Below, piece after piece: positions 19,346-61,832 of a DNA stretch of 64,000 nt. How positions within the stretch are numbered: position 1 is the first letter of the stretch; each line of letters starts with the position of its first letter. This stretch comes from Ectocarpus siliculosus (Eukaryota > Sar > Phaeophyceae > Ectocarpales > Ectocarpaceae). Below the pieces are notes generated by a model. The model saw only the letters and a program-made list of their open reading frames with translations. It was not told where the DNA came from and searched no databases. The position numbers and the translations under genes were made by a program. The stretch is taken from contig FN649749.1 of NCBI GenBank assembly GCA_000310025.1, positions 1,557,601 to 1,621,600 of the forward strand, written 5' to 3'.

Positions 19346-22300
19346 ATTCACTGGGCCTTGCTCGAGCACTCATCAAGATCGGGCTTCTCCCGGTCCGGTA
19401 TTGTTCGCCGGCCAGGTTCTTGCACAAGATTGGCGCCTACGGGCGTTGCTCCTATTCCTATTCTCTCACGTCGTTTGCGCCCCGCCGCACGTTGGATGTG
19501 CGCGTCCGTCCCATCTAGACTACTCTTGCGCCAGTCCTACTATTGCCTTACACACCGTCAACACCGTTCAGTGCACATTTTTTAGGAAGGTCGCACCTGT
19601 GGAGATTTTCTCACATCGTAAGTGCTTTGTTTCACTGCCCCACCACCGTGCCCTCCTGCGGTGCTTTAGTGGTCTCGGTATTCACTGTAGTCAAATCGCG
19701 AAAGACGCCTGCGTACCAATCCCTCGTAGACTAGTCTAGACCATACTGTCGACTTGACCGTAGAGGTTGCGATGAAGTACATCCTTCAAAGTTTACCCGT
19801 CTGGCCACGCCATACCTATCGACCGCTGTAGCGGATGCCCCCCACACGGGTAGGCTCTGTTTCTCTCGAGAGAGTCGCGCGAAGATATGCGAGGCTGATG
19901 TTTCTTGCTCCTGCTACGGCAGGTTCTGACGGCGGTAGCCCTGGCGAGGTTCCTCCGAGCGGGATCTCTTCGTACGGGTACTCTTCCTTTAGCGGCAGCG
20001 ACACCTATGGCGCCGAGTACGCCGACCTCCTAGCGAAGTTCGAGCATGACCACACGCCAACAGATGTCGGTAAGTGCAACTACGTTTACAGTTACGAGAA
20101 TATTCCCGGGAGAATCAAGCCGCGGTAGATGCGTTTAATTGTCGCGTTTCCCGAAGTTGAACGTGAAACCCAAGGGAGGTGTTTGTTGTGGGTCTCCCTA
20201 CTGTCTACAGTTTTCCTAAACCGCCTATGGGCACCACGTTGGGCCCATGGGCTGCCCGTGCGGAATCCATGGGCACGCCCATGAGCAGCCGATGGGGAAT
20301 GCCCGTGGGCAAGCTCATGATGAGTAGCCCGTGGGTAGCCCATGAGCGGCCAGTTAGTGCCCTTCAACCGGAACCAGTGTTCTCCTAAACAATATATTAC
20401 TTGCTTTGGAACGGGCATTATAGCGGCTAATAACCCTAACGGTAACGTTAGCCCTAACCCTAAGCCCACGCGATACGTGCTAGGTTGATTCTAGGTTGAT
20501 GTGCCGGTGGCGAAGTTCTAGGTTAAAGTGCCCACGGTGGGCACTTCATCGGTACAGTAGTGCATGGGCTGCCCATGGGCCCACCCATGGGTGTCCCATG
20601 GATGGTTTTGCAAAACTGCCAGTAGTGTGGGAGATGATATGTTGTGTGCGCGTTGTTTCCGCAGTCAAAGGGTACCTCGGGGCAGCAGTTGGTGAAGTTC
20701 GGCGGGACTCCGAGTCGTCGATCCTTTTGCCGACTGCTTGCTGTGGGGTGCGAGTCATCATCATTTGGCACGGGTCAGTGGCGAAGAAAGCGGCAAGCAA
20801 GGCATCGGGGAGCTCTTCTCTTCTTGTTTGCATGTACCATTTGCTTCGGACGACTTCGCCGAGTGTTCATCCCTGTCCCTGTCATTCTTTTCTTCCTTAG
20901 ATAATAGTCTAGGCTACAGAACAGGCCCTGCGATAAGAAACGTCAACGGTAGGTTGAGGCTCACATTCTTTTTTCATCGCCACTACTGTCGAACACAGGC
21001 TGGTATATGGTAGAGTTTGGACTAGGATCTACCGCTGGGCTGTATTTCTTATCCCTATCTTCGTATTTTTCATGAAACTTGGAGCCCCTGTTTGCCAACG
21101 AATATTTCTTGTTGCTTACCTGCGGGCCCGTTCTACGGTACAGCACGGAACTATGACCCCTGTAGTGGTACTTCACGGACGCATGATGGGTATTCCACAG
21201 AAAAGCGAATCACGATCTTTCGTGAGAAGCGCTTGACACCCCTGGCTGCTCACGAGCCCTCCTCGCGCTAACCCTTTGGCGTGCGTGTGTCGTTGCTTCG
21301 TCGCACATAGGCATTGCTTGGTTTCTGCTGGTGGTCAGCAGCGGACTCCTTGTCGTAATGACCGGTGTGATGTTCCTCCTCATCAAGAATCGACACGTCT
21401 TCGAGATCAGGGCAAGGTGGGTGTCCGAAAAAGCGCAAACCGCGTTTTACCGGCCCACTGCGGTTACAAGTTTAGAGGAGGCGTTTTTAGGACGGCCTAC
21501 ATGTAGATGATACTAGTGACTCCAGTGATGAAGATCGTGTATCGAATTGCCATATTCGATCTCGATGTATCGGCGATCCTCAATATTGAATCGCTGAAAT
21601 ATTTTGCAGATATCGCCGATTCTGAATCGAGACTGGAGATCGATTATCGACGATTGATTCCGATTCCGATTTTTCAAGCAGGGGGGCAAACCGCACATAC
21701 CCCCCTTCAATTGATACATATGGCACCCCCCTCCACCGCACGCGGGTGCTGGGTGCACAACGCAACAGGTATTGGAACCATATTTCCCACAACGCATCCT
21801 TTCGATATTATATCCTCTTCCTCTTGGTCAAGGGGGGGTGATGTGTCTCACCTGCGGTATTTTGCCACCATATCGAGATCGAAAGATCTATTGTCCGAAT
21901 ATCGGCCACCTCGGTGAATATCAGAAAATATCGAAAAGCGGCACTTTTTTTTTTTTTATATCGTATCAGCAACCATTTCCAACACCGTGTATTAGTCCGT
22001 AAGTGTCGAAGGTAATGCTGTTACACTTTAACGCTCGTTTCGAGAAGCGGCTTGTCTTGAGGGGGGCGATGAAACGCGCATGCTTCTTCCTGGAGTTTTG
22101 CCCAAAGTATTCTTCTTGTTGCGGCAATACGAAGCGAGCTCGCCGGAATCAACCGTTTCTCAAGAAATTACATACGATCACTGAAGCCTACCCGTTCGTC
22201 TTTTCGTTACGGTCATGACGGAATTTTCGAAACAGCAGCACGATCACCGTATTTTTTTGAAGATGATGAAGATTTCACATAGGTACTCGCGTTACCGAGA

Positions 22301-24330
22301 CGCCTCTATGCTCTCGCTGCATGCAGCATACCTTGGGGCCTACGCCTGTGGGTTGGCTGGTGGGAGAGCCCGCTACAGAAACGTTCTTGCGTGAAGACGA
22401 CGATCGTTTGACGTCGGAAGATGATACCTACTTGCCCAGACCACGTGCGTAATGCGCCCGCATCACCCCGATTCGGAAGCCATTATCCCGCTTCCCGACA
22501 CAACCCAACTACCCGATTCGAAAGCCAAAAGGATCCGTTTCCCCTCAAGAGAACGCCGTGTCTATCGTTAAAAATATCGCGTCTCGTGTCTTCGATTTCC
22601 CCCTCACGCGTTTCTCCTGCTACGTTGCTGGTCAACCAAGGTCCGCCTGTCTGGTGATGCTGTTGGGCGCTTCCACGATGACGGCGCTGGCGATGAACAT
22701 GGTCGGTCAGTCGGTGGTGATATTCAACGCTCTTCCAAACCTCTACACCTTTTTCATGGCGAGTGCTTCAGCATCGCATAGCTTTGTGATTTGTTTTGCG
22801 GTTTGCAGGCGCGAGGGGGTATGTGTTGCTGTGTGCGTTTTATGTGTTACCTAACCGTTTGTACAGAGTTTTCTTCCCGGGTTTGCTAACAAGAAGACGT
22901 CAGCCTTGCAGGTAACTGGATTTTAGAATGCTAGAACAGCGCTCTTGTGCGTGTATCGACCGTCCTTGTCTCTTTTTGTTTTTTCTTATTCCTCCGCCTC
23001 GGGTTCTTTGTCTCTCGCCCCCCCCCCCCCACCCACCCTGACGACACAACGCCCGCGACAGACGTAAAANNNNNNNNNNNNNNNNNNNNNNNNNNNNNNN
23101 NNNNNNNNNNNNNNNNNNNNNNNNNNNNNNNNNNNNNNNNNNNNNNNNNNNNNNNNNNNNNNNNNNNNNAACAGCTATGACCATGATTACGCCAAGCTCG
23201 AAATTAACGCTCACTAAAGGGAACAAAAGCTGGAGCTCCACCGCGGTGGCGGCCGCTCTAGAACTAGTGGATCCCCCGGGCTGCAGGAATTCGGCACGAG
23301 GTTAAAGAGTCTTTCCCAGGTTCATTGTCCGATTCTCTAAGTTGTTAAGGAAAATGGCTTCCTCCAAGGTTTTTCTTCTTCTCGGTCTTGCCTTTGCCGT
23401 TGTTCTCCTGGTCTCAGCTCGTGAGCTCGCTGAGACTACTCAAACCCAGGAGGCTGTACAAACTGACTCTGTGGAGGATGCCAAGTATGGTGGCCATGGG
23501 TATGGCTACGGACACGGCTACGGACACGGACACGGCCACGGTCCCCCCCCCCCCCCCCCCCCCCCGGCTGACGATGCCAGCTGTACTTCTTTATCTTGGT
23601 CTGCGGTTCTTGCTGCTACGGCAGTCGGACGATTCGACTGGCCGTCCTTTTCAGCACGGGCACGAGGAGAGTTGTTCCGTGGTTAGCGTCGGTAAGAGGG
23701 ACGGGTCAACGCAACCACGAGCTTAAAAAAGTTGAGCCTGGACAGGCGCGTCGTTTGGACGTCGTTGGGGCGAAAATCCCACTTGTGGCAGCAGCGCTAC
23801 CAGAGTTTATGATAGTTGTTGTAAGCGAATGGAAACATTGAAAGTGAAACGAGGAGACCTCTCCCTCTTCGTAGGCGTGAAGAATTGGATCTACATGTAG
23901 TAGGTGTGCGATCAAGCTGTTGTAAAAAATGCAAGCATTCAGAAAACACGGGTCGTTTCTTCTCAAAATGAGGCGCGTGGGGCCCGGACGCGGCACGGCA
24001 CTCGTCACCAGGGAGGGTCGATGTGGGTGCGGGAGTTAAACCTATACACACAGCCGCAGCACAGCCGCTGGGGTGGCAGCGCGAAAGCCACTGCGCCGCC
24101 AGAGGGGGGGCACACGGCAGACACGGAGCATGCCTAACGAACATACCTTCGCATCTGACACAGAGCAAGTGCCGAACGAGATGCCTTCGAATCTACTAAT
24201 TCCCAATGTAACCGTGCGGCAGGCGGCATTTGGCACTCAGAGCGGAGATGAGGCTAAAATCGCTGCGACGTCGTGCGTGTGTGTGAAAGGGCCCGAAACC
24301 AACGCCACTATCTCTGTGTGTCTCTCTTCT

Positions 24331-24381
<51 letters not shown>

Positions 24382-27300
24382 CTCTGTCTCTCTCTGTCTC
24401 TCTCCTTTTCCGAGCTAGGATAAATCACTCTCGGCTCTGTACGTATCTAACAGCCAAGAGGCGAGGTTCTCCCCCCTCCCCCCCCCCGGCTCACCAAGAA
24501 CATTCCACCCCGTACCCCCCCCAAACACAAGGGTGATGATGACACTACCAGCTTCTGGCTCATCCTTACAAAACGTAACCTGGGACACCGGGGAAAACCC
24601 GGCGTATCGCTGCGTCTCGGCATCGTAGGGACGCGACGTCAATGTTCTAACGGCTACGGCATGCGCGTACATCACCATACCCACCACCCGTGGTCACGGT
24701 GGTTGCGCCTTTGTCCTTCGCGTTCCTCTCGCAGGAACGAAACCACGTGTGTATGTGCCTGGTTCTCGGAGCCGGCTCGCTCGGGTTTCCTCTGTACGTC
24801 ATGTACGACGTCGGGGACGGGCCCTTCGCCGAGCTGTAAGCATCCTCAGACGGGTCGGGGATAGTTATTGTGCGCGTAGGTTGACGTGACTTCGCTTGTT
24901 CTTCTTCACGTCTGGGGGGCTTTAGTTGTCTCCATTCTGAGGCGCGGGAGGATTTGGTTTCCCCCGCGGTCGGATAGCTATTGAATTGAGTTTGCACCAT
25001 GCTGCCCTGTCCCGCTCCACTTTTGTCGAAGCTGCTCATGGTTTGCCGAGGTATCAACCATCGCACGCACATGCGACTCGTTCGCCTGGCCGTGTGGTAG
25101 CCACCAAGAGGGCGATTTGTATCCGAAAAGTATTTCAAATCGCCCGCGTTTCTCCACAAGAAACTCGAAAGTCCATTCATTTGTGGGAGGGAATGTTATT
25201 GAAACGAAATCGCCCAAGTGTCGTGTTTCCACCCCGCTGCACTCGTCAACATGACACGACCAAAAAAGTCCCCCGGGTTAAGAGGCACGGGCGACATCAG
25301 CCTGGTTGATGCGCAGGCACAAACCATCCGAAATATGCGCATATATTTGTATCTGCTTCGAGTGTTCTAGGTTTTGGCTCACCGTCACGATCCTTTCTTC
25401 AGTTGCACCGCACCGAAACAAGTCTTGCTGTCGCTGTCGCCGTGGTGGTTTCTTGTAATGATTCTCGTCCAACGGAGGCTTTTCGCCGAGCGTGCGGGGG
25501 TTTTGCTGTGGCGCGTCTCGATAGCGTCCCAGGCAATGGTGCTATCCCTCTACCCCCTCGTGTGGTGAGGCTTTTGCGGTCGGTCATCTTTGCCTGGTAG
25601 AGGTGTTCGGTTACAACGCAGACCGAGGAGTTTGCTGTTTGCGTGCTACCAAGTACCATCAGGCACCGACTCGGAAGTCGGTCATCATCGTCGTCGATTG
25701 GTTCGCGTAACTCCTAACGAAACCAGTTCTCACGTGCAGCAAGCAGGGCATCTTGCACCGTGCCTCGAGTCGGTCATCGTCATCGCCGGCGCCGGCGCCG
25801 TTGATCGAGTACAAAATTGATCCAAATTTCTTAGTACGTCCAAGTAGGGCATCTTGCGCTCCCTCTCAGATGTCCGGAGCCTTTGCTTGGACAACGACCG
25901 GCTTTTTTGATGATCGCCTGGGTTGGAACACCCGGCGTCCTTGTGCGTCCGTCGATCGCTGAAACGCTGCCTCTCCCTGCTGTCGCCTAACCACGTCATG
26001 CTGCAGGAAAACGGACGATATTTTCAACATCTCTCGAGAGCTTCGTGTCGTCATCGTCTTGACCTTCAGTACGACACGTGAGTATCTACGAGAGATAGAT
26101 CGAAGTTTAAAGTCTTCGGACCTTCAGTTTGACACGCGAGTGACAGAGAGAGAAATGTCGACCGGAATCGGCTTCCTCTTCATTGCGACACGTGAGTAAC
26201 AGCAAGACGTCGGTCGTCCGGCAGCCGACACTGATATGACATCGTTGCTCATGATATCCACCAGGAACCACACATTGAGCGCGCTTTATCATGAAGTAAG
26301 GTCGGAGAGGGCGTGTTTCGTTGCAATGCTGTTGAAATGATGTAGTGCGCGCTTCATCGATCGGCTGACAGCCCCGCCACGGTCTGGGGAACGTTTCTTC
26401 CGTTCTTGCACCGCTTGTGCCGTCACATGTACTGTATTAGTACGGCGAGCTCGTCTGCAGTTGTTGAAAATGGCGCCGTGGTTATGCTTTTCGTGTGTAC
26501 GCACGTGACAGATAAAAATAGTTTCGTTGTTGTTGTTGGTGTTGTTGCTGTTCTTGCTGCTGCACTTCACTCACCAGAAAGAGTACAAAGCCTTTGTTGG
26601 CGTGCGCGCAACTTACGGGGGGCGTAAAACCAGGGCACGTGTACGTTTCCGTATTCAGGCTAAAGTGGTACGCGAAAGTCACTCCTGTGGTGGGAATACT
26701 GTAGTAACCCGGCGCGGCATGAACGGTGTTACGGCCAAGGTTTCATGCGACAGATCTTGATGCTTGGACGACACTTATTTGCTCCAGGCAGACGGCAGAC
26801 GTTTCGATGCACATGTCATTTTAGATGCATTGTCCCCTGTTCAGCGTTTTTTTTGTTCGGACGGCAACGAACTCGTCTGCTTCACTCGTCGTTTGAGAGG
26901 AGTGCATGACATTTGATCTTATTCGATCAATCCTATGCATATGTTGGTAAGGAATCAAGTCTTCCACGAATCGAAGGCTGATAGAAGAAGAACGTGAGAC
27001 TCTCGTGATTTCGTATGCACCAAAGTACCTCGTATGCCTGGCCATGACCGCTTAAGAGCGCGGGTTCTTCTCCAACTTGGTCTTGTTTGAAGATTTTGGC
27101 CTACGGCGGAGGCACACTTTTTCCGCTGTGGGAAGTCCCTCGAGACTAGAAAACGTGACGGTCTCTCACCAAAACCCGAGCGATTTACCCCAACAGGCCC
27201 ATGCGGCAGGTCTCCTGTCCGTGGCACTTGCTGCTGTCGCAGCCCTCTCTCGTAGCATTCCCTTGTCCGTCTCGTGATCATGCAACTTACCTTACCCCCC

Positions 27301-27608
27301 ACCCGCATCTTGTGGCAGTCATCGGGCATTTCGGGGACAACCATTCTAGCGAGGATGTCGCCCGTTGGGTCAACACGAGAATCATGGGCTTCATCTCGGC
27401 GACCGTCATATTTTTCTTGAGGTGAATAAAGTACTAAAGAAATATGCAGCGATTTAGAGAAGAAAAAAGGGAGACAACGATATTATAAATAGTGAGAGTG
27501 AGTGTGTGTGTGTGTTTATTGTTAACATCGACAGCGCTAACCGGCTGGCCAATGAAAAGACATCAGTCTTAGTGCTGTTGAAAACTCAAAACACTTCTTG
27601 CCATGAAC

Positions 27609-27668
<60 letters not shown>

Positions 27669-30600
27669 CAGACAGAGCACACACAGAGCACACACAGAGC
27701 ACACGCTTGTACCGAGGTGGTATGAGGCGGTGCTCCACATCATTCGGCCGCGTCAATCGGTGTTCCAGACGAAGAAGTGGCCGCCGTGCGATCTTCCTGA
27801 CTATTTAACAAATATGTACCGCATTAATGGAAGTATAAAATCAGCTTCCATGGAAGTTGGATCTACTTCCATGGAAGATCATACCAGCTCCATGGGAGCT
27901 ACTCGTTTCGCACTTCCATGGAAATAAAGATATGAAATATGGATGTGCCGCTTCCATGGAAGTTAGCTTCCACGGAAGTCCCGTGGAAACTCCATGGAAG
28001 TAGAATAGCTTCCATAGAAGTCGAGCCTTAGGCTTCCATGGAAGTTATTCAAAACAGGTTTAGGGCTGCTTCCATGGAAGCATTCAGCCTCGGGTTAGCT
28101 TCCACTGTCTTATCGGGGTTAAGGTTAGGGGAGCTGGAATGACCACATATCCAGACGCTTCGGTGGAAGTTTTTTTCATGGAATTTTCGGTTCTTCCACC
28201 GAAGTCGGGTCCGACCTCTGTCACTCACTTCTATGGAAGCTGCCTTCATGGGAGTGTTCGTGCTTCCACGGAAGTATCAGAGACTCTGTGAAGCGAGGAG
28301 CTTCCATGAAGGTAGTACTGCCATGGAAGCTCGTCGCGCTTCCGTGGAAGTCTGAAATACATCCTCCATGGAAGCAACGAACGGTTTATATCGGGTGCTT
28401 CCATGGAAGCGGATCAACTTCCATGGAAGCAGAACAACTTCCATGGGAGTTGTTTTCCGCTTCCATGGACGCATCAGGGAAGCTAGCACCCGAAACAGAC
28501 GAACAGATTCCATGAAAGTCAATTTGACTTTCATGGAAGCTTATTCCATTTGTAGTGTAGGTTACCTCCGCCGTATGTCATTAGGCGGATACCTGTAGCC
28601 ATGACAGCATCGCCTGGGATGTGTGTGCGTAGGTGTGTTCCGCCATACCACCACCACCGCCATCACCACCACCACCGTCGTTCCCGTCAATGAAGTGTTC
28701 CCTCCAGCCACATACCACCGCAACCCCCCGGTAGCCCTGCGGCCTCGCTGGGGGACCAGACCACACCTTTTGTCGCCCCCACCTCTATGCACGCATCAAA
28801 TTGATGGTTTTGAAGAGAGTAATCGTTCCGCCGCTAGAGTACGCCGGAGAAGTATGGGAAGGTAATAAGAAGGTAGTCAACAGAGCTTGAGGCAGCGCAG
28901 ATGAAAACAGCGAAAGTCATCCTATGATGCTCCAAGCGCATAGGTAATGCAGCCGTCGGGGCAGAACTGGGGATCCGATCCCTACGATCGGGAAGAGACG
29001 CAAGGAAGCTGACATGGCACATGGCAGTATCGCATATGCGGTATGGGAAAGGAGAGGTTACGGAGAATAGCTTGGAAGGCGGAGTGGGCAAACAGAAGAG
29101 GGGTAGATAATCCACGGAGTGGGTCAGGGTTGTAGGTGAGGGTTCGAGACTGACGAAGGCGATACGCTGGATACGGACGGGCCAAAAGGGTTCAAGGAGA
29201 AGACATCTGTTGCTTTTGCCGAGAGAGAAGAACATAATCTAAGAAAAGAAAGGAAGGATAAGGTGGGCATAGAAGTGTACGGAATGTTGAAAGGAATAAT
29301 AGGTACCTATATGGACCCGTGGATACAGGGACAAAGCTGAAGGTCAAATTCAGGACCGGGGATATTGGCATTCGAGAACGTAGACGAAGACATACGAAGG
29401 CAGACGATGAAGACTCCAAATTCAAATGTGATTGCGGCTCCGAGTGCGAAGACCGTGTTCATGTAGTCGCAGAATGTCGACTGTACAAGAAGGAAAGGGA
29501 AGGGTACATTGATGAGCTGGGAAAAGCAGAAGAAAAGTACAGGAAGATGTTTGAGGCATGGATAGCCAGGAGAAGACGTTAGCTGTACTGGGGCATAGGA
29601 AGTGGGCTGAAAGGGCGGGAAGTGATATCGGTAGGATAGATGAAATAGGGACGACATTTTGAGCCACCTTTGGCAAAGTAGGAAGGAACGATAGGCCATC
29701 GGTGATCGGTCCTGTGGGAAAAATGCTCCGTCCTCTCGAGGACGCATGATCAATGGTCTGACCGCTAAGGCTTGCAAAACATATAGAGTACGCCTCCTCC
29801 CCCCCTCCCCCCTTTTGCCCTGCAACCCCTGTCAAAACTCAACTTCGCCATTTCGAAAATCACGAGAGCCGCTGGACTTCCAGTCAGCGGTCATCGAGCT
29901 GTTCACTAAAACCAATGCTGGAGTCTGTCTACCTGTTAGGCCACCAACTGTCGGAGTTCACCCCCACCCAGGGTTTGCCTTCCCTGTGTCTTGACCACAA
30001 CGATTTCACCCCAAATCGCCGCTCGATGAATCATTCGATGCTCATTTAACCCTGCTTGGCTTTGTACCCTGGCGTCTCCCGTGACCATCATACATCTCAG
30101 TCTGGGGCTGCCTATCCGGCAGCTTGTGTTCGATCCCCTCGAATCGTCGGACCCCCGGGTCTCCAGGGCCCTGGCCAAGCGCAGACAGGGCCGCCTCGGG
30201 TAAGCAGCAAGCGACTACCAGCGCCTTGAAGAAATCTTGCGTTCAACTCGTCGTCGCGGCCGCCCGTGGGTTGCTGCCTTCCTTCCCTGTTGCGATTTTC
30301 GGTGTGTCGTTCCTTGTTGACCCGCCGTCCGGCTATGTACACCGAAGAGGTAGCCACTGGGTAGGGCTAGGTTTAGGGAAATAGATGTATCATCTTCGGA
30401 CTAATGGTGGATCGCAAGTGGCAGCTCCGAGGCGTTGTCAGAGAGTAGGACCCCTCTGCTGTTTGGCGGGCGCGTCCCTCTTCCAAGCTTCGCGGTGTGC
30501 AACCAACACACGCCTCCCACGGGGATTGATTCGACGTATGCGTGGTTTCACAAATACTGCCGGAAAATCTTTGTGGGTACCAGGCCTTGGATGATGCTAC

Positions 30601-33600
30601 CGTTCGAATTGGGCCGAACCTCAATCACAGAAATGGCGTCTGTGGATGTCGGTTGCGGGTGGGAGGCGTCTCTTTATTGCTATGGGGACGTTGCATCTTT
30701 ATGTAGGTAGACCACCAGCGTGAAAACATCGCCCAAGGAAGAACTCCGTGCGGAACGTACTTACCGTCATTCACACATTCCTCAGAGTCCCGGACTTGAG
30801 ATGCGGAGATCTCGGGCACCACATTCAGTAATAGAGTGCCCGCCCCCTTCCCTGCCTTCATGTCCAGGCCTGAGTCGACGACAACCCCTTGCTGCACGAG
30901 CAGTGCTGGCTCGGAGTTTTCCGGCGTGAACACGCTTGCTCTTTGGACGTACGAGAAGGTGAGAACAACTACGCCTTTGTGAGAGAGAGAGAGAGAGCTA
31001 AGAGCACGAACAACAACTGCGCCACTTTTTGACTTGCGGAGATCGCCTTGTAGTGAAGAATAACGTTCACTCCTCGATAGCGAAGTTCCAAACCCTTCTC
31101 AGAGCACGAGTTGCGCCAGTACCACAAGCGACATACACCCGTGAGCCGGAGTGCCCTCCGCCGTCCCCCTCCTCCGGAGAAGTAAAGGACAAACAAATGC
31201 AGTAATCTCAAAAGGCATGCCTCCGAAAAAAACGCGCTCCACGTGTCCTCAGATGGACAGATGGCGATATGAAAAAGCAGTCCCCTTCGCACCCCTCGTC
31301 GACCGGGCGTGCCACCTATCTCGTGCTTGAAAGGGGAATTCAGGAATTCTTCTGGCGCTTGGCACCCTTAAGGGTTACTATTATTCTCGTGGTTTGTTGC
31401 TTTTGCGCTGGCGTGCGAACCGACAGGTGGAAGCCATGCCGAGCGTCTCCGTAGCCTTCCACGAGTTCTCCCGCAAGGCCCTGTGCCAAGAGTCCATCTT
31501 CTTCCTCAAGGACGTCACGAAGTGAGCGCTTTCGTTGGCTTGCTCAGCCTGTCTGTCACACGAATCCTTCACGCTTGCCTGCCCGGGGGCAAAATTATGT
31601 GCTAGATTTATTGATTCGAACGCCTGCGGCAGTACCGGAGCTAATTCGCTACATACTAGGAATGGAGACTCACGCGTCGCTGGGGGGTCGGAAAAGCACT
31701 GTAGGTGCGGCGGCAGGGTGAGGGTTAGCCCCTGCGCGAGGGTGTAGATAGCATTAAACAACAAGAGATAAAAAAACGGGTGCATGGAATCACAGCTTTC
31801 CTATGGGGGGGGGGCAAATGCCACATTGGTAACGAAATGAGCACGCCCCACCGGCGCCGGGCAAACGCGGATGGATACGTTCACGATACATCTCGCTCAT
31901 GTGCCCACACGAGCCTAAGCGCAAACGAGTCGACTTTTTTCCTTTTCGAAACCGTGATTAGGAACTTGGGGGCAGAAATTGTAAAAAGTGGACCGAGTAT
32001 ACAGATTTAACACATTTTTGAGACCTGCAGGGTCGAGTGCCTTGATTCATATTCTGTGCAGTCCATAGTTGGCTCGTGAGCCCCATTTTCTCTCTCTCTG
32101 AGGGTTCCGTAGCTGCGAAGTCCAGCGAAACGGCGACAACGCGCGGGTTGGTGGTTGTAACCGGCAACGTCCATCTGTTCATGTTGTGTGATTGTTGCCC
32201 GGCCAATGGCCTCATTGGACAGGTTCCAGTGTGACGGCTATAGCGACGCTGTTGATGACGGGGGCGGCGAAGACGGCGTTGGAGGCAACAAGTTTGCGGC
32301 CTTTACGGAACTCGTTCTGAGGTATATCGTCGACGGCGCCCCCGAACAAGTCAACATCAGGTACAGTACATAGGTCAAGATCGGGTGCAAAAGTACGGTG
32401 ACCCTCACGAGGTCAACGTCAGGCACAGTACATAGGTGAACATCAGGTACAACATTACATTGGCTTCAACTTATTCCGTCTGCTATGTACCATCTAAATG
32501 TTCTCTTTGGGTTCTTCGTGATGGAAGGATTGGATACTCTTGGTTCGCGGTCTTGTGACGTGCACGATATTATTTCAATAACATATCGTTTTCCGTCCAA
32601 CGCAAGGAGAACGTCCAGCACGATCTTGTTTTCAGAGACAGGTGAACACACACCGCGGAGGGTTGCACGCGGTCGATTTGTCTCTACTTCGTAGACGAGC
32701 GGAAAAAGTGATTTATCACGCGACGGGCGAGGAAGGACCCATCCTATTGCTTGATGCGGCCGCCAGTATCCACTCCGCCCTGATCCCCTTACCCGCTGCT
32801 GTTTGAGAACCACAGACAAAAACTCGCTCCCGATGACTTTACCGCTGTGAAGTCAAGCACGTTCGTGACAGGAAGGTGCTCGTGTCGTCACTCTTCGACG
32901 ACCTAGCGTCGTGCGCCACCCTCACCCGTTGTTTGACGAACCTGGAAAAGTGTTGTAGACAGTGAAATCCTGGCCTCCGACAACTTAGCCCCCGTGAAAT
33001 CAAGCACGTTCGCGATGGGAAGGTGCTCATGTCGTCACTCGTAGGCGACGTAGCACTGGGACGCCGAGAACATTATCCCTGACGCACACACCGTCCCTCC
33101 AGATGTAAACATGCTCCCATGGAGCACGCACAGTGGTTTGTTCGACGGTTTTGGCCGGACTTGTGTGGCGACGTGTTGACACTGCTGTAGGCGCTGTGGA
33201 TTTAAGTTTCAATCCGCCGTAAGCTCATCGTTTTGAAACAGCCGTGAGGGGGAGGACTCGCACCACGCTGCCGCCTCTCCCACCACACGAAGGTCTTGAA
33301 AACTAAGAAATTCGCGTGTTGCCCTCCCCCCCTGCCTCACCGGAAAACCTTTCTCCTGCTCCTGTGTCGCGGCAGCTCTGGCAACAAGGATGCAATCGTT
33401 GGTGTCTACGAAGCCGGGCAACTAGCGTTCTACGGCCTACCGTCCAGGGAGAGGAGGTATTGCTCTTTGCAGGGCGTGTAGAAGCTGAAATATAGTTTAC
33501 CCATCCGTATGGTGATCGTTATGCGTTTTACCGTCAGAAAACGCCATCATTATGTGATTTCAAATATGAAATGTATTTAGTCTTTGGTTTTATGGAGGAA

Positions 33601-34332: not shown

Positions 34333-35251
34333 ACTATTGGAGCAGCTAGAGAGCGGGCTGTGTCTGGGTTTCTCGGACGAACCGTAGAGGCGGGTCAAAC
34401 GCTGTTGTCATTTCGGGTGAACAGCAGTACTCATGTATCCTGGTCGTCACCTTCGACACATTAAGTAAGGATGCAACAGGCGGTGGGTGTCACAAAAGAG
34501 AACGGCCGGCCACACAGGAAACAGAAGAACAGGGGGGGGGTTGTTTGTTGTTCGTAAAAAATGCTTCTTGCAATATGAACTTGTAGATGGGCGACAACGA
34601 ATGGCGGTGGCCATTGTTGTTCGTAAGTCTTTAGCAGTGTGCCCCACATGAATGTACAGCTTGGGCCCGGAGATACGGAAAGCGAACAAATTGGAGGAAC
34701 CTCAATTCCTTACATGGGGTCGAAGTTCCTGCCGAACTCATCCATAATTGATAGATTTGTTTTCGTGTTTTTGGGGCTGTCGCAGACTTTGCTAATTCAT
34801 GTACGACGACAACCACAGCTTGGTTCGAAACGCCAAGAAAGGCGGCGGAGAGTTCTTTTCGAGCCGATTCAGCAGAGAGCGTGTGGCGGTCGCGACGTGC
34901 AGCGCTACGGCAGAAGCGAGGAGGGCAGCCCGCGGAGGCGCTGGGGCGCCGCGAAATCGTTCACTGACTCCTTTTTGGTTCACAAACTACTTTTACCTAG
35001 GGACCAACTAGGGGGTGGGAGCAGCACAAGGAGAAGTGGGATGTTTCTCATTGGACTCGCTCCCCGCCCCCCCCTTGTTTCTTCATGTCTTGGGTGTATC
35101 GCATGATCCTGTTTTGGGACTTTTCTCATGTTGTAACCGATATTAAGCTCTGTTTCTTGGCCCAATTTTCTTACTCCACTCTGATCGAGAGTTCGTGGCC
35201 AGCATGGACGATCGTCTTGCGGCAACCGGGCATCATCAGAGAGGACCCGGG
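34333..35251. other. Intergenic stretch after gene A
   Basis: No polyadenylation signal could be fixed. A 70-codon open frame (34799-35011, plus) has an Arg/Ala-rich end but no splice or homology support, so it is left unassigned. Confidence 0.4.
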
Positions 35252-35462
35252 NNNNNNNNNNNNNNNNNNNNNNNNNNNNNNNNNNNNNNNNNNNNNNNNN
35301 NNNNNNNNNNNNNNNNNNNNNNNNNNNNNNNNNNNNNNNNNNNNNNNNNNNNNNNNNNNNNNNNNNNNNNNNNNNNNNNNNNNNNNNNNNNNNNNNNNNN
35401 NNNNNNNNNNNNNNNNNNNNNNNNNNNNNNNNNNNNNNNNNNNNNNNNNNNNNNNNNNNNNN
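35252..35462. other. Assembly gap (211 N) with repeated flanks
   Basis: GCATGGACGATCGTCTTGCG lies at 35204 on the left and GCATGGACGATTGTTTTGCG at 35463 on the right, so both sides start with the same word of about 25 bp. Confidence 0.98.
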
Positions 35463-50400: not shown

Positions 50401-53400
50401 TCGCGTTCCCAAAGGCGCTGGTCCTAAGCGGGTTGTGTTGAAATTGTTTCGCAATATCTATCGAATAACAACAAACTTCTGCAAGTCGGGCTGGCCGTGT
50501 GGTCGAGCTTTCCTCGTCTCTACCAGCCCCTTGTGTCTGTTGCCTCTGCTCAACGCATTCTTGACCAGATCCCTCACCCTTACCACAACGAAAACACGCA
50601 CAGTGCTGGTGCGGGTCGGCTGGTGCCGACTACACTGTACACGGGGAGTCCACCGACTGCACATACGCCTGCTCAGGGGACGCTGACCAAATGTGCGGCG
50701 GGTACGACGCCGCCAACGTCTACCGGTACACGGCTGAGAGCACTCCCAGCCCCACTCCTAGCCCCACGGAAGCTGTTTCCTTCGTTGCTCTTGGGTGCTA
50801 CGAGGATGACCCCGAAGACCGTATCATGGACGACCTCGTTCTTTCGGACGCCTCCATGACAACCGAGGTGATTGGAATATTGGAGGGTTTTGTTTGGTAC
50901 CACACCGCATAGTAGTCGAATGCAACTTGGTTTGTGTGAAGGCGAAGAAATGCAGGTGCATGATCCCATGCACTTTTCTAACCGACACGGCGTACGTGCC
51001 ACGGAAGTCTCCAAATGAGCCCCCTCAAGATGGGGTAATCACGTTGGGAATCGAACCTCCCATGGTATTGGCATCATTCCAAGTGGACGAGGGTCCGGGT
51101 TGCTGTTGACCTTCATTAGGTACCCCAAACAGTTCCACCTTTCGGCTGTTGGTGTTTTGCAGTTCCTGGCCGCAAGCAAAACGCTCTGTGTGTCCACGGT
51201 AGTGACTCACTCACGTCCCCGTATGCATCATAGAATGCCGGTTTAACTTTAACGTGAGATTGTTATGGAAACGCATATGACAGTACCCTGGATCTCATGA
51301 TCTCACTAACATGACAAATGCTCGTCTTGAATGAAGGGCCGTAGTTGCACGGTGTACCCCTACGCCCGCTGATAGGGTACGTGAAACTTGTCAAAAGCCA
51401 TCCCGTTGATCCGTTCTTCAATTTTCTCTGCAGCGTGCTGAAAACGCGCATCCGCTGGTTTTGGTTGCCCCATTTATTTCTCCTCCTTGCCGTAATGTGC
51501 CGTGGGTGTAACTCTGAAATCAGTTGTGCGAGCAAACATGCGTCGGGAGCATCTACTTCGCCACACAATATGGACGAGAGGTGAGTCAAGGCCGGTAGCG
51601 TAGAGGCGCGCAATGAAAAAGGTGGAATGTCGTTGTTTCGGTGACGAATGTTTCAGATGCACGGGTTGCAACCACTGTGCATGTGTGATTTCAGATCAAC
51701 TTCTTCCCCTGCGACATTTCCGAAGGTTCAGCAGACACGCCAGTTCCTCAGGAGCCTGGAACACGTTTTCTATCTCGAGCGACGCTCGAGTGGTACCATT
51801 CTTGGTCCTTCACCCTTTCGCGGGTTCTGCGTTCCGTGCACACATGGCGACCACCGGAGGAATAGCCCGTGAAGATAATTTGAGGCAGCAGTTTTGTCCC
51901 TAAATACGAGGGTAGTGGGGTATTTTTTCGCGACATATATGTCAATTCATGCCATCTCTCAATGATGTACATGGACGCAGCTCTGGGATCGTCTTGGCGA
52001 ATCGCTACCAAGCAGGTGTTGATAGCAGGACTACACACTTGACATCGGGCTGGCCGGGCGGTTCGTGCGGTTAAGCTGTCCTTGTCTCCAACAACAGCCC
52101 CCCTGTGTCTGTTACCTTTGGATACAGCATTCTCGGCCAAACCTTCCTTCCCGCTCGTCTGTCCACGTCACCTCTACCTGAAAAATACAAAACGTGCACA
52201 GTGTTGGTGCGGTTCGGTTGGTGCCGACTACACTGTACACGGGGAGTCCACCGACTGCACATACGCCTGCTCAGGGGACGCTGACCAAACGTGCGGCGGG
52301 TTCGACGCCGCCAACGTCTACCGCTATACGGATGACAGCACGCCCAGCCCCACTCCTACCCCCACGGAAGCAGCCCCCTTTGTCGCACTTGGGTGCTACG
52401 GGGACGACCGCGAAGCCCGCATCATGGACGACCTCGTTCTTTCGGACTCCTCCATGACAACCGAGGTGATGACAACTTGAGGATATTGTTTGGTTGCACT
52501 CTCGTCATAGATCGAATGGTTTAGGTTCTTAGAAAGACGACCAACAATCCGAGGTACGCCAATTGGGTTTTACCTGCGTGTCGACAGACGCACAACATGT
52601 TCTTCATACCTTTTCTCGCAACATGGCATACTTAAGAGATGTTTTCGAACACCCCCCCGACATGCGGTCACCATGTCGGGACTCGAACCATAAAGTTCGA
52701 CCTTGTTGGTTTCGGTAAACTCGGTGACCTTCACCTCCATCGGCGCTTGTGTACGTAGAATTCTGCCGTTACTGACCTTGTGTCACCCTACGCAACAAGT
52801 ATTGTCCTGGGTCCACGGTGTCGTTCCTCGACACGCCCCGGATGATGTATGTAGTACTGCAACGCCGGCCCCCCGCGTCGGTATGGCTGTGCGTCGTTGT
52901 GTTTGGTGGCCGACCAATGTCTTGGATGCCAATAAAATGTAATGTGTTTTGTTTCTGTTCCTTGAGAGAATTTGTTCTCCGAAACCTGTTCGAGTGCCGT
53001 CGAGTTGTAAAACACCAGCCGGTTCCGACAGGACTTCTCCTGTTCCCTCGACACGTTGTCCAATGTACACGCCTTACGTGGTGCCTGCTTCTCTTGTCTC
53101 GCTGCGTCCCATTCAAAACCTCAAGTTCCTTTCTCTCTTCTCGTTGCCCCTTTCTTTCTTTACATGTTCGTGTGTCTGACATCAGCTGTGCGAGCTCACA
53201 TGCCTCGGTAGCACCTACTTCGCCACACAGTACGGGAGAGAGGTGAGTTCAGGCAGATTGCAGTGGCCTTTACGGCCATCCGCTTGGAATCTAGCCAGCT
53301 TGTACCATCTTTCGGGAGCCGCAGTGATGTTGTGCATCCTCTTGAGTATTGTTGCATTCGGTTGTACATCCTGTTTCCGCCGTAGGAACAATTGTCTTGC

Positions 53401-54692
53401 CGATTGTACCAGCGCGGCGTACGACTTGCCGCACATGAAGCATGAAAAAGAGGTGCCGATGGACGTGGTAGGCGTGAGAACCGTACAGCCTGTCATATTT
53501 GCCTCATTTCGTTGATGAAACAAGCCCTATTGATGTGATAGAAGTATATGTGAGTGAGTTGCGGATCTTTCAACGAGGACCGCCACACCCAAGAGTGTTG
53601 TTGAAATCCCTGCACTAATGCACAAGGGTTCCGAGGTTCTACCCGTGCGACTCCCGTTACGGCCGAGCTTTCCTCGCCTCGACCAAAGACTAAGTTCCCG
53701 TTTGTCCGTTTGATTTTCTGTCTTCCTGTGTTTCCTCTGCCGAAACTCGCACGCACAGTGCTGGTGTGGTTCTGATGGTGCGGACTACGCTTTGCACGGG
53801 GAGTCCACCGAATGCACCTACCCGTGCTCGGGGGACGCTGATCAATTGTGCGGCGGGTTTGACGCCGCCAACGTGTACCTTTTCACGGGCGAGACGTCGA
53901 CATCGTCCCTCGTGGGATGTTACCAAGACGAATCGGATGCCCGCATCATGGAATTCGCGCTGACGGACACTTCTTCCATGACAATGGAGGTGGGCGCGGG
54001 TTTGGGTACCGATCGGTAGCTCTAGCAGTAGTCTTTTTGTGGTCAACGCTATATGTGCCGATTTCGCAAGACAAGCACGCGCCTATCTCTTTGAGGGAAG
54101 ACTCAGGACCGTTTTTATTTCGGACAGTGAGTATTTGATCAAGTTTGCAGCAGTGAGAGATTTCGTTTCGATATCGATGACAGTTTTCCGCTCCTTCCGC
54201 CCGCTGTTGTTGGCATTTTCTAAAACGTTTCGTTTTGCAGATGTGCGAGGCAGAGTGCAGCGGCAACACGTACTTCGGCATGCAGTACGGGACGGAGGTG
54301 AGAGGTGGCCGCTTGCGAAACAGCCACGCCAATAATGAATTTCATGTACAGTACGCCATTCTCTCACATCATATTTCTCGTTCCTCATCTTGGACAACGT
54401 TTGGTGATGACTGCTTCTGTAAAGGCCTACCTATTATAGTACTCGTGGAGTCCCTCGTGCAGTATCATCGCTTGACCCAACTTGACAACGATCGACAAGG
54501 AAAATGACAGCGGAATGTTCGTTTTCTTGCGTCGTGTCTTTTGGCCATCAATCTCTCTAGTGCTTCTGCGGAGGAGAGTCAACCGACCTCTTGCAGCATG
54601 GGGAGTCAACTGCTTGCGACTACGAGTGCCCGGGGGACTCGGAGCAAGTGTGCGGAGGATTCTACGCCATGAGCGTGTACTCCTACTCGTAA
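44483..54692 (+). CDS. Secreted six-WSC-domain protein, 15 exons, complete
   Basis: Exons: 44483-44647, 44937-45276, 45590-45759, 46440-46496, 47282-47545, 48165-48221, 48994-49257, 49949-50005, 50604-50867, 51524-51580, 52202-52465, 53186-53242, 53759-53989, 54241-54297, 54561-54692. The sum is 2,436 nt, 811 residues. Residues 1-24 are a signal peptide (LLAAMMAVLSIGHASG). Exon 2 encodes an acidic domain of about 113 residues that I do not recognise. Six WSC domains follow, each assembled from three phase-0 pieces: GCYEDDPEDRIMDNLALSDS to MTTE; LCELTCVGSTYFATQYRRE; and CWCGSADADYALHGEST to QTCGGFNAANVY. Each carries the eight-Cys WSC pattern. Linkers are Ser/Thr/Pro-rich (DDSTPSPTPSP). There is no C-terminal membrane anchor. 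WSC domains are thought to bind glycans; a wall or matrix role is inferred. Confidence 0.88.
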
Positions 54693-56097: not shown

Positions 56098-56472
56098 CCC
56101 GCCCCCCCCGGTGTTGGCCATGGGGGTTGGGTTTTCGTCGCTTGGCAGCGATGTTGTAAAACAAGCCGATCACTTCGTGAGCTCGGCAACCAGGTTACCG
56201 CTTTTGTTTTGCCTTTGTTTTTTTTTTGCGGTAACCATGAATGGTGGTCGAGTAGATTATGTTGTGCAGGGTCGAGAACCCTCCGCGCAAGGGGGATAAT
56301 CGCACCACGTTGTGTTAAAATTGGTCAAGCACCCTCGAGGCAGTTACACAGGGCTTACAACTGTCTCTCTGTGGAGTGGCCCGGTGAGAACCCGGCGTGC
56401 TCCGTCCCGGCTTTGTAGGGATACGAGGTCAATGGTCTAACGACTACGGCATGCACGACTATGAGTACACCC
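56098..56472 (+). repeat. R1 copy 4, opposite orientation, with internal deletion
   Basis: Its reverse complement matches the R1 copies at 13.1, 15.2 and 37.2 kb. A segment of about 150-200 bp between the ACCCGGCGTGCTCC block and the CTCGAGG block is missing, so the TA insertion region is deleted here. Confidence 0.7.
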
Positions 56473-56723
56473 CTCCCCCCCCCCCGACAAGAACGCTTCA
56501 TACATACTGTGCACTATTCGTGACGAGCACACTCGAGAGGTGTAAAAATCTGGCGTACAGACCTGGTACAGATTACTGGTCCGACACACACGCGAACGAT
56601 GCACTTGCGTAGCACACACAGGTACAGACAAAACACAAATACACATCGCCAAACATCTCTCGACGCCCGCGGTACCCTCGCGCTCTGTGGAGCGTCCAGA
56701 CGGGTTCCACCGAACACACAGCT

Positions 56724-59700
56724 TCAGGCCCGATCCCCATCCATAGCCGTCTTAAACCCATCGGTTGAAAGGAACCTGGTCATCAAGTTACTCTCCAACA
56801 CGAATCTTATCTCTGCGTACAACTTGGTGAAGATGAACCTGCGCGCGGGGTGGGGGGAGAAACAACTCTAGGAAATGAATGAACGTGAAGGAAAATATTG
56901 CGTAGTTGTTCAATCGTTATGCACTCGGTTCAGGTTAAATCGAAACACCGTCCTGGTTCCATCGGCCCAGCGAGTGTCGATCAGAGTACCGAGCGGTTCC
57001 AGTCTGTCTGTGACCTACTATGTCAACCCTCGCGCCCACCACCTCCACCGCATATATGTTTCCACAGCGATGGGTTTCACTATTCGGAAACAATGGCAAT
57101 ATTCATCCGAAGGGCGAAAAATCTCACACACACCAATTTACCTTCTTTTCATCGGCGGGAGGTCGTAGAATGCTGATTGTCCGGCTCGGTAGATATCAAC
57201 AATTTCAGTCTTACTGTGGGAGCTGCATTGGAACGAAGATGGCCGGAATTCAATTCCGCGAGACAGGGCAAACGCGGACAAGCAGGGGTTCAACTTGACC
57301 TTTGGAATTGCGGTGGTATTTAAGTGCAAGACCTCGCCCTACGAACGTTTCATCAACGACGCATGTACTTAGTTCGTGAGGCAGTTGCTCGCAAACGGAT
57401 TGGAAACAAGAGCAGCGTTGAAACATCGAAACGTCGGTGGTCGAAGCCGGTAGTACCGCGCTATTTTTAACGCAAGTGCGGTGCCTGCCTTCCGTATTAA
57501 TGGTGGCGTTCACCCTATCACATCCAAACCTACTTTATTGTTTGACGTATGGTATTGTTCACTTCCATCGAAGCTGTGCACAGCTTCCGTGGAAGTCGAT
57601 GGGAGCTTCACATGCTTCCATGCCATGGAAGTAGAATCGACTCCCATGGAAGTCACTAAATTTCCATTGAAGGAAGTGGTATGGAAGTTATTTGTCAGAT
57701 TTCAGTGCTAGCTTCCGTACGGCTTCCTGGAAGTCGTATCTACTTCCATGGAAGCATGTGAAGCTCCCGGAAAATGCGCAAAGTTCCGATGGCGCAGCTT
57801 CGATGAAAGTCAATATCGACTCCCATGTCGGATTCCGGCGCCAGCTTCCATACGGCTTCCATGGATGTTGCCGCAACTTCAATGGTGGTTGAGCAGTTGA
57901 AATGGAAGCCACGGGTGATTGCTTCCGTGGAAGTCGCATATTCATCTTCCACGAAAGCGTGAAGAGCTTTCATGGAAGTTCGTCCGTCGAACGCCTCTCC
58001 ACGAAACCGTAAGGTACTTTCAATGAAGCACGCGATAACTTCCATGAAAGCAACGTCCACGGACGGGGCTGGCAGGCAACCTCCATGGAAGCTCGAATAC
58101 GTCCAAGAAAGCAAATCCAAGCACCCACTCCCAACCCTAACCCTATATTATCGCCCAATGGTATCCTCAAGCTGGGCTCGGACGATACACTTCCATGGGA
58201 GTTGTGCCATACTGCTTCCATGGAAGAAGTCAACAAATATTTTTCCATGCAGCCCGAAGGTAGGGGACGGCCACGGTACTTGGTTGAATTGACTCCCTCT
58301 ATTAGATTCACATGCAATTGGAAGCCAAAGTTTCAATGGAAGTCGCTCGTGAAACGCGTCCATGGAAGTCAAATTCAACCAACTTCCATGAGAGCTTCAC
58401 GCAGTTTCCCAAAAAACGAAGGGGATTACAAATTCAGCAAAAATCGCCCGTAAGTCCGTCACCAAGGTGCCCGACGTCATAGTTTCATTCACGGAAGCGA
58501 GGGTCCGATCCCAGCGTCGAAACCACATGCCACGCAACACGTCGGGCTGTATCTGTCGACATGGGTGCGTCGGAGACTCTCCAGTATATAACGGACGTCG
58601 AAAACACTGAGTGAGGCCGTAGAATAGAATGCAGAAACGACATACACTGAATCTTAACCTTTCAATATCTGAAAAACACGTTTTTGTGTACCTGATGTTA
58701 ACTTCTTCGGGGGCACCGTCGAAGATGTACCGGATCACAATCTGAGAAAATGCGTCGAAGTTGCTGCTGTATTCCGTGCCGTCCCCGCCACCCCAGTCGT
58801 TGTTGAAGTCGTCGTAGCTATCGCTTTGAAACCTTTCGAACGAGGAAATCGATTATCCGCGCAACATCTTGACGCGAACACATACATCATACATATTGTT
58901 GCGTGCAAACATCGGTGTGCGTACCGCTTTCGCTCTCTTGTGGTGGCCACAGAACCGTGAGCCGTGGGCAGAAGACATTAGACAGGTGTCAATTGAGTAC
59001 TCCGTCAAAAGCGGCACCTCGACACCCTTGCGCAGGTCTCAAGCATGTGGCAAATCCAAGATCTCGGTTCACTTGTATGAAAAGCAGCGTGTGCTCCGAC
59101 CAGTCTAACTCATTTTGTTCGTTCGCGGCTAGACTATAGTGTACAGAAACAGCGGTTGGCACGATCTGACCTCCGGTCGGGTGAACGTTTGCGAGCAGTA
59201 TGGTAAAGTGTATCCGGCGATAATATCCGTCGATGTGGAATGTTCGGGAAATGAAGTTTTACCCCCCTGATGATTGCTTCGCGCATTTGCAGCCCTTTCC
59301 ATATCATTCGGAAAGACTTGTTGACGGACGAACTTGTGTGTGACGACAACTAAAGCACTGGCCTTGTGACGTCCTTGAGGAACAGGATGGACTCTTGGCA
59401 CAGAGCTTTTCGGGCAAACTCGTCAAAGACTGCGGACACGCTCGGCATCGCGGCCACCTGGGTGCGTAAGCAATATAAAACGAGAATGGGGGCACAGGAG
59501 AGTTCGTGATCACCACAGCAATAGATTTACAGTAGTGAAGAAGATATCGATGCAAGAGGCGGGTGGAAGTCCTGCTTAAACTGTCATCTGGGTTTCAGTG
59601 TTGTGTGGAGGACTCACAAAGCGTCGTTATCGATGTGAAAGTAATGTCCCTCGAACACCGATTCATCACTGTCTTCAACTACATAGGGGGCAATAACGGC

Positions 59701-61832
59701 CGAGGAGAGGGACGGCGACGGGGATCGACTACACCGGGCAGACAGGTGTAGGTCGGGAATGGCAGAACTCGTCTTGCTCTATCAAAGCGTTTCCGTCAAT
59801 CAATGTCTGGTGAGTGTGTCGACCGAAGCATTTCTGTGTGGCCATATTTGGCGCGTCCTGAGCGCTCTCTCACCTTCTCGTACGTCCAAAGGGTGCTCTC
59901 GGACATCTCCGAATCAGCACCGTCCACCGTCGAGTTGGTGGGTGCTGTTGAGTCTCCCCTAAACGTTAAGGCAGCAGGGACGTGACAACTCCTGGGGGAT
60001 ACTGCCATACGTGACGAACACATTACTAGGACCGCCCTCTATTTCTGATCCATGAGGTAGACTGCTGTGTTGCAACGTACTCTTTGCACGCGGTTTCAGG
60101 CGTGAAAGCCGAACGAAATCAGTGTGTGCGTGTACGCGGTGGGGGTGGTACGGGTCAGGCGAGGGTGAAAGAGATGGGTCGCACGGCTGGAAGGCATGCT
60201 CAAAAAGCAGTGCCTACAAACCATTAATTCTTCATGTGGAGGAAAATGCAACTTCTTCGAGCCTTCCATGTATCCAGTGACCTAAGAACGTCGCAACAGT
60301 CTCCCAAGGCCTGGCTGAAACGGCTTTCCCACCTTACGTAACGGGGGATTACGGTTGAGCGTCGATCCATCCTCGAATCGAATCCTTTGATTGCTGATAG
60401 ATATGTGCATTTGGTTTAGGTAAGGCGCTCACCCTACGGATGTATTATTCTTACCAGTACCACGCAGTTCGCAATAGGCCGAACGGTTGAGCAAAGAGGA
60501 AGTGTCCTCCTCCGTGAAGTTGTTCAATACGCGCGATACATGGATCCAACGACAACGGTAGATTCGCTGCTATGTAGCTAGGCTGCCGGTTGAGGAAGTA
60601 GAGACATGCCGATAGCGCGACGGAAAAGTTCTAACTTTGGGCAACCGCAGGTGGGAACATAGAAACGAAGCACTGGCGTTGACTCCTCACCCGATGGCGG
60701 CTCTTCGATCCTTACGCCTGGCCAAGGCATCGGAAACCTCGGGGTCCGACGATTCGAGGGGGTTGAAGAAAAGCTGGCGGGCAGGCGCTCCCAGACTGCG
60801 ATAGGGCGAACACGACGGTAGCAGGGTTTACAAAGAAGAGGTTTGACTATCGTTGATCGAGCCAAATCGGGTCAAATTGGCCGTCGAGTTTGAGTGGATG
60901 CATGGGGTGCCGGGGATAAGATGGGGCCGTGAGAGTAGTACTGTATCCGCCCGCGAAGTCTCATACCTACCGGAGTGCAGCTCAAGACAAACGAGTTGGT
61001 GGTGGTGGTTAGCGAGGTATCGCGGTACACGTAAGTATCCCAAAAGGTGATGCTGCAATGGCCGATGCATCGGCTCGATGACGCCGGGCCACCTCTTCTC
61101 GCGTGTACTAGAAAAGGAGGCGTCTGAACCGAAGCTTGCTTTCCGGATTTTTCTTTGGAATTCAATTCATGGACAAGGTTGTGGAACGTCCAACGACTGA
61201 ACCCATGAACCCTCTACACACACCGCATCTGTCAGTATACCTACCATGTCACAGGCCATGCCTGTCCATCTTTGTGGGGCAATTCGGAATCGCGTTTGGT
61301 TCGCGGCGGGGGGCTGCTGTGCCTCCTGCGCTAGCACGCGGTAGGGTTCATTTTGCGAGTATCGTAATTCCAGTTTCGGGGAACCTGATGGTGAACTGGA
61401 GGAACAGCTGGGGGTGTGGGTGTACAGGAGCATATATTCTCTGCAATGTAGGCATATCCTCGTTGTGTTAGCTTTCTCGTCATTAGTCGGAAGAGAGAAA
61501 ACGACATGCCAAGTATCGAAATGCGCCTGGTCACTCGTGTCTTCTGTCCATTTTTCGTTCTTTCTGCCTTTGCTGGTTGCTCTAATGCCCCTCAATCCGC
61601 GAACACAACCACGACCACACACACACACCTCTCCTCTCTTGCGCAAGCTGACACACAACATAACCTTTCAAAATCTCTCCAACAAACACTCTCATGCCTT
61701 CTCTCAATCAGCCTACACCACTCGTTTACCTTAAAGAAAACATGACACAGGACGAGATGAAGGCGATGTATCTCTCCGTGATCCAAAGAGCTGCGGCTTG
61801 GTGTAGATAGGCGTCCGCGAGTTGCCCCGTGA
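56724..61832 (-). CDS. 7TM-RGS protein (gene B), 3' portion only, paralogue of gene A
   Basis: Minus-strand exons in order of translation: 61832-61730, 60795-60691, 59991-59874, 59457-59363, 58832-58692, 57222-57142, 56838-56724 (TGA). Every junction has the same phase as in gene A, and the 103-, 95- and 81-nt exons have identical lengths in both. The product covers TM7 (ERYIAFISSCVMFSL), the following helix (ARQLFFNPLESSDPEVSDAL), a Ser/Thr-rich linker ending LWTYEK, and the full RGS domain: FDEFARKALCQESILFL, IRYIFDGAPEEVNIS, IVDIYRAGQSAFYDLP, FVLESNLMTRFLSTDGF. The Glu and Asn expected to contact G-alpha are kept. Upstream TM exons were not found before the window end. The donor of exon 59457-59363 is GC, not GT (AG then GCCAGT); this is either a GC-AG intron or a damaging mutation. 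Otherwise no stops or frameshifts are seen. Confidence 0.75.
57563..58395. repeat. CTTCCATGGAAG palindrome array (P2), in an intron of gene B
   Basis: Over 20 exact or near copies of CTTCCATGGAAG and its variants occur, with CCCAACCCTAACCCTATATT near 58130. The design equals 27840-28552, but it lies in a different intron of the paralogue, so the two arrays inserted independently. Confidence 0.8.

Follow-up and report, generated by a model that had tools for sequence, protein, structure and literature searches.

The joining of a seven-transmembrane (7TM) part to a C-terminal RGS domain is already known from plants, fungi, and excavates. The plant 7TM-RGS protein, encoded by a single gene in Arabidopsis (AtRGS1), restrains a self-activating G-alpha (PMC3718340), and its C-terminal tail is described as bearing a serine cluster (PMC12017998). 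In Aspergillus, class VI RGS domains have GTPase-activating protein (GAP) activity on a yeast G-alpha and carry a developmental phenotype, and an EN/AA RGS mutant has been described (PMC10794492). Among protists, N. fowleri has 28 7TM-RGS members with G-alpha partners, and the RGS domains tested in vitro from Naegleria 7TM-RGS proteins accelerate GTP hydrolysis by several G-alpha subunits (PMC9283941). The present work concerns a 64,000-nucleotide stretch of the Ectocarpus siliculosus genome (C24:1557601-1621600, hereafter the window; C1, C3, C24, C26, C68, and similar labels are contigs of this same genome) and its two tail-to-tail genes, A on the plus strand ending at 34332 and B on the minus strand ending at 56724. 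A first reading of these letters by a model (the original prediction) had seen in them a fusion of the kind known from plants and protists, and the cited papers bear out that this architecture exists there as well as in fungi. We consider it likely that the products of A and B are 7TM-RGS proteins acting as membrane-anchored GAPs for G-alpha, working like Arabidopsis RGS1, the fungal class VI receptors, and Naegleria 7TM-RGS proteins, and tuned by their seven-helix part. The architecture itself being known, the interesting part is its expansion in a brown alga.

The predicted products of A and B resemble the plant protein in their short N terminus, seven transmembrane (TM) helices, linker, and C-terminal RGS domain, whereas AtRGS1 has a C-terminal tail and the A and B products end shortly beyond their RGS domain; the single Arabidopsis gene also contrasts with at least 13 loci here. 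They can be likened by description to the fungal class VI proteins GprK and GprR (7TM part, then C-terminal RGS), which differ in belonging to another lineage and in numbering three genes in A. oryzae (PMC10794492), and likewise by description to the protist 7TM-RGS families of Naegleria and Trichomonas (PMC9283941). EGF-like or lectin ectodomains and proteolytic-site motifs are present in several of the Naegleria proteins (PMC9283941), whereas the N terminus of A and B is short (~42 to 49 modelled residues, plus a putative further first exon).

Exon pairs were obtained by comparing the stop-to-stop frames of A and B, and reading the splice sites then gave all seven exons (TM7, linker, and RGS) that the original prediction had described as shared. 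As B continued past the window, its upstream exons were sought in the 20 kb of the contig that follow the window, by comparison with the upstream region of A, and six further exon pairs were found there, corresponding to TM1 to TM6. An N-terminal pair, reached with a query from an A open frame (E value of 0.008), is backed by phase-1 splice sites that agree between the two genes at either end of the exon and brings the total to 14. Gene B therefore reaches at least 68666, past the window end and past 61832, which had been taken as its limit, and no conserved exon was found at 19346, where A had been made to start. The exons are as follows, positions above 64000 being given in extended window numbering.

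Gene A, plus strand:
19923..20069, +, N-terminal exon, phase 1 at both ends, paired with B 68666-68541 (first supported exon of A)
21311..21416, +, TM1 exon
22641..22758, +, TM2 exon, GC donor as in B
23581..23691, +, TM3 exon with SRTIRLAVLF
24735..24835, +, TM4 exon
25478..25564, +, TM5 exon
26007..26077, +, TM6 exon
27319..27421, +, TM7 exon
30101..30199, +, end of TM7 and start of linker
30868..30958, +, variable linker, ending in LWTYEK
31427..31521, +, RGS exon 1, with the Glu matching RGS4 Glu87
32223..32360, +, RGS exon 2, with the Asn matching RGS4 Asn128
33376..33456, +, RGS exon 3
34206..34332, +, RGS exon 4 and stop codon

Gene B, minus strand (first seven exons outside the window):
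68666-68541, -, N-terminal exon
67659-67554, -, TM1 exon
67193-67076, -, TM2 exon, GC donor
66287-66177, -, TM3 exon
65567-65467, -, TM4 exon
64816-64730, -, TM5 exon
64129-64059, -, TM6 exon
61730..61832, -, TM7 exon
60691..60795, -, end of TM7 and start of linker
59874..59958, -, variable linker, ending in LWTYEK
59363..59457, -, RGS exon 1, GC donor
58692..58832, -, RGS exon 2
57142..57222, -, RGS exon 3
56724..56838, -, RGS exon 4 and stop codon

In the seven exons first described, the A/B lengths are, in nucleotides, 103/103 for TM7, 99/105 and 91/85 for the linker, and 95/95, 138/141, 81/81, and 127/115 for the RGS part; among the 14 common exons, length is identical in nine and equal modulo 3 in every one. 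Donors are GT except in 3 of the 26 modelled introns, namely the TM2 intron of both genes (GCGAGT) and the intron after RGS exon 1 of B (GCCAGT). The modelled products (490 residues for A and 480 for B) each have exactly seven Kyte-Doolittle peaks of at least 1.0 in a 19-residue window, a count of TM segments that relies on hydropathy only. Pfam recognizes the RGS domain of B (36.6 bits, E value of 6.8e-9, cut-off of 23.9) and that of a composite of the C26 relatives (27.0 bits). Alignment columns E22 and N76, corresponding to RGS4 Glu87 and Asn128, are invariant among A, B, the C26 composite, RGS4, and AtRGS1 (the RGS4 letters used match PDB 1agr_E with one difference, and the AtRGS1 sequence used is provisional). 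We take RGS4 Glu87, Asn88, and Asn128 to be the RGS residues that matter for G-alpha contact. With this provisional AtRGS1 sequence, the RGS part aligns by hhalign at a probability of 58.9% (E value of 9.4e-5, 23% identity, 114 columns).

The same succession of exons recurs elsewhere in the genome, where all match counts are lower bounds. A whole-genome search with B gave 49 exon matches at an E value of 0.1 or less, many of them beyond this locus, on C68, C26, C14, C13, C155, C20, and C10 (C10:1270115), and a search with the C26-relative composite gave 67 at 0.01 or less. On C26 and C68, with exon groups defined by strand, order, and distance, TM and RGS exons stand in the right order in 8 of 13 groups, the RGS side only being found in three and the TM side only in two. 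On C13, where the TM match of the B search was weak (E value of 0.07), the 10 kb then examined carries on the minus strand, in order, TM1 (8e-7), TM3 (2e-4), TM5/6 (0.001), and three RGS exons (first and last, 4e-10 to 2e-7). The 9 kb examined on C155 carries on one strand, also in order, TM1 (5e-5), TM3 (1e-6), a TM6 exon that matches weakly (0.04), and three RGS exons, the best at 4e-9 and the third at 0.02, and the opposite strand of both stretches gave no match at an E value of 0.1. Finally, C15 has on one strand a TM1-TM2 open reading frame (4e-4) and an RGS frame (9e-5; 29.8 bits with Pfam). Together with A and B, these eight C26/C68 groups and the C13, C155, and C15 loci bring the number of loci in which TM and RGS exons occur together to at least 13. 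Phase-compatible exons and this repeated order support the TM-to-RGS fusion originally proposed.

C14 has four last-exon matches, and the one examined further shows RGS exons, to which a TM3-like exon can be added by eye only. No A/B-like TM exon was found at an E value of 0.05 within 20 kb around each of the RGS loci C10:1490009 and C14:1831781. A cluster of RGS last exons spaced ~12 to 19 kb apart was also observed at C14:338577-384270, and in the RGS exons at C14:349001-359000 and C10:1490009, Gln replaces the Glu conserved in A and B.

Three C68 loci are 96.7 to 97.7% identical over 2.4 to 3.1 kb, and because of this identity part of the family expansion is, as judged from the sequences, recent, as seen on C68. 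The array at 845-91272 of C68 (217,709 bases), with the strand order -, +, -, +, -, +, -, looks like a tandem duplication of a divergent gene pair with a unit of ~22 kb. C68 as a second haplotype of C26 was considered and rejected: C26/C68 pieces are 67 to 94% alike, mostly over shorter stretches, versus the 96.7 to 97.7% found among the C68 loci, and at the loci compared C68 is thus no mere copy of C26. The near-identical loci could possibly be an assembly artefact inside C68. A viral origin was set aside as well, one viral-contig scan with the A/B alignment having returned 64 pattern matches and no relative.

From TM1 on, A and B are 57.8% identical over 438 residues (E value of 0.0 with A as the query and 2e-176 with B). 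Nonsynonymous and synonymous divergences (dN/dS) are 0.31/0.77 over 479 codons by the Nei-Gojobori method (NG86) and 0.29/1.14 by YN00. For the TM part (57.7% identity, 248 codons), they are 0.29/0.60 by NG86 and 0.28/0.73 by YN00; for the RGS part, they are 0.22/1.31 by NG86, and YN00 returned no value. No frameshift or stop was found in the 490 and 480 modelled codons, and both genes appear to be held by purifying selection. Because of the overall dS under both methods, the A/B duplication is, on the sequence evidence, old and not a young local one. An expanded G-protein signalling family, as first suggested, is strongly supported by the at least 13 loci and at least five G-alpha loci, recent expansion being seen on C68 and not in the A/B pair itself. 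The NG86 dS was also observed to be unequal between the parts (0.60 for TM versus 1.31 for RGS), for which partial gene conversion is one possible reason. Alternatively, one or both copies could be decayed, or the TM and RGS exons could belong to separate neighboring genes. The GC donors (one of them in B where A has GT), the 2.7-kb intron of A between the TM7 exon and the next, the C26/C68 groups reduced to the TM side (n = 2) or the RGS side (n = 3), and a TM-to-RGS join predicted from genomic sequence would all fit such a situation, which we nevertheless judge very unlikely given the uninterrupted codons, a dN/dS below 1, and the TM-then-RGS order at many loci.

Several points weigh against the proposal that A and B encode 7TM-RGS GAPs. 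The RGS domain, which exceeds the Pfam cut-off in B, falls just under it in A (23.3 bits, E value of 8.7e-5, i.e., 0.6 bits below 23.9), and the place of RGS4 Asn88 is taken by Ser in A and B (Thr in the provisional AtRGS1 sequence). No convincing match to an RGS domain came out of solved-structure searches, whether with the A/B profiles or with the B RGS region: profile A1 had nothing at an E value of 0.01, profile A2 had one weak match to RGS14 (0.81), and the B RGS region alone had one non-RGS match (0.37). The RGS assignment is thus supported by Pfam and not by these structure searches taken alone. The TM part of A and B reaches no Pfam family at its cut-off, and the TM parts are left unaligned by hhalign against the provisional AtRGS1 sequence. 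The TM-to-RGS join is inferred from exon phases and recurring order, B may splice poorly at its GC donors, and both models are incomplete at the 5' end, having no assigned start codon or signal peptide.

The nature of the seven-helix part has to be weighed between three accounts. It could be a true G-protein-coupled receptor (GPCR) that also activates G-alpha, one protein then both activating and switching off. Seven TM segments and weak matches of both products to the class C family 7tm_3 go in this direction, as does the small number of plain class C receptors detected, 7tm_3 having only two exon matches in the genome, one of which is over the cut-off with its neighbors. These product matches are however far below threshold (9.9 bits and an E value of 0.71 for A, 10.3 bits and 0.54 for B, for a cut-off of 33.5), so that neither A nor B belongs to class C by Pfam, and no other GPCR family is listed. 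Moreover, the plant 7TM-RGS protein is described as a GAP working with a self-activating G-alpha (PMC3718340). This dual role therefore seems to us quite unlikely. The SRTIRL motif originally called GPCR-like does exist in TM3 of A, but the label was overstated: no support was found for it as a GPCR signature, relatives carry CRALRL or CRVLRL at that motif, and it looks like a motif of this 7TM-RGS family.

A second account keeps the 7TM-RGS descent and makes the seven-helix part only an anchor for a constitutive RGS domain that senses nothing. The short N-terminal part of A and B is compatible with it, and in A. oryzae the phenotype is rescued by an RGS domain lacking its 7TM part, which shows that such a domain can act by itself, whereas A. 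fumigatus GprK is reported to require both parts (PMC10794492). The TM residues are conserved here (57.7% identity with dS well above dN), and distant relatives again show the motifs FEI.AR, R..RLAV (TM3), and DD.F.I, a level of conservation beyond what simple anchoring would appear to require. Such conservation argues for more than an anchor, with cue sensing as a further inference, and leaves the anchor-only account somewhat unlikely in our eyes.

We therefore retain a membrane-tethered, tunable GAP as a working model, an account that draws on homology and on measurements made in other organisms. The short N terminus would lie outside, followed by the seven helices, the variable linker, and the C-terminal RGS domain inside, where the latter would speed up GTP hydrolysis by G-alpha at the membrane. 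The seven-helix part would tune this activity in response to an outside cue, either through internalisation or through a change in how readily the RGS domain reaches G-alpha, in the manner of Arabidopsis RGS1. The tail-to-tail pair of A and B would be old, and the family to which it belongs would have expanded elsewhere in the genome, in part recently; this family probably serves to terminate G-protein signalling at the cell membrane.

The substrate of such proteins was searched for as first suggested, and G-alpha is present. There are 22 exon matches to PF00503, of which C1, C3, C7, C19, and C479 each hold several, which makes at least five loci. All five have DVGGQ (switch II, with its glutamine), and the switch I Gly was found by eye at all five, as RTRTTG on C7, RIRTTG on C1, and RVRTSG on C3, and as SSG on C19 and TSG on C479 just upstream of DVGGQ. 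G-gamma (PF00631) had no genome match, a silence equally found in the control genomes and thus no evidence of absence. Six G-alpha paralogues and several GPCR-like genes were reported from Ectocarpus gametes (PMC3879662), compared with our at least five loci, and a GRK-like protein is known in Ectocarpus (PMC3307776). Among four diatoms, a complete RGS domain was reported only for T. pseudonana (PMC3727952). The term "RGS" does not occur in the main text of PMC3879662 as available, and no paper on brown-algal 7TM-RGS was found among the papers listed by searches of the open-licence literature, judged by title and the start of the abstract. We make no claim of a first report, because only open-licence literature was covered and surveys of eukaryotic G-protein signalling may list such genes.

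The complex multicellularity of brown algae evolved independently, and little is known of their receptor-level signalling. At least 13 receptor-like GAP loci beside several G-alpha genes lead to the hypothesis of a control at the switching-off step, as in plants, and the family offers mapped candidate receptors for outside cues. We know of no brown-algal receptor for gamete pheromones or gamete recognition. A bolder scenario, which we hold to be unlikely as a whole, would be that brown algae have built up, separately from land plants, a large repertoire of receptor-like GAPs that is still growing, reading cues mainly by releasing or applying a brake on G-alpha and not by classical GPCR activation, the young C68/C26 arrays being chemoreceptors, e.g., for gamete pheromones or recognition. 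In the same genome, EsV-1-7 repeats (PF19114) gave at least 150 matches over the cut-off (150 scored of 880 candidates), and none of 14 control genomes was positive; we take a large EsV-1-7 family to be a mark of brown algae.

The WSC gene that the original prediction placed between A and B was also recovered with Pfam WSC, as a bystander:
45526..54689, +, WSC-repeat gene (span of the repeat-bearing open reading frames)

Six of the eight frames scanned match Pfam WSC at an E value below 0.01, one of these six staying below the cut-off. Five repeats are spaced ~1.5 to 1.8 kb apart, and the matches cover only positions ~39 to 82 of 82 and are followed by a GCY...RIMD stretch; each exon seems to join the latter half of one WSC domain to the opening half of the following one. 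Runs of N lie at 12006-12105, 23070-23169 (inside an A intron), and 35252-35462. In the A intron after TM7, open frames at 29140-29582 (+) resemble by eye the cysteine-rich end of a non-LTR retrotransposon reverse transcriptase. Minisatellite-like repeats (translated as FHGSW or SMEA) are alike at 27828-28500 and 57560-58450, within or close to introns of the two genes.

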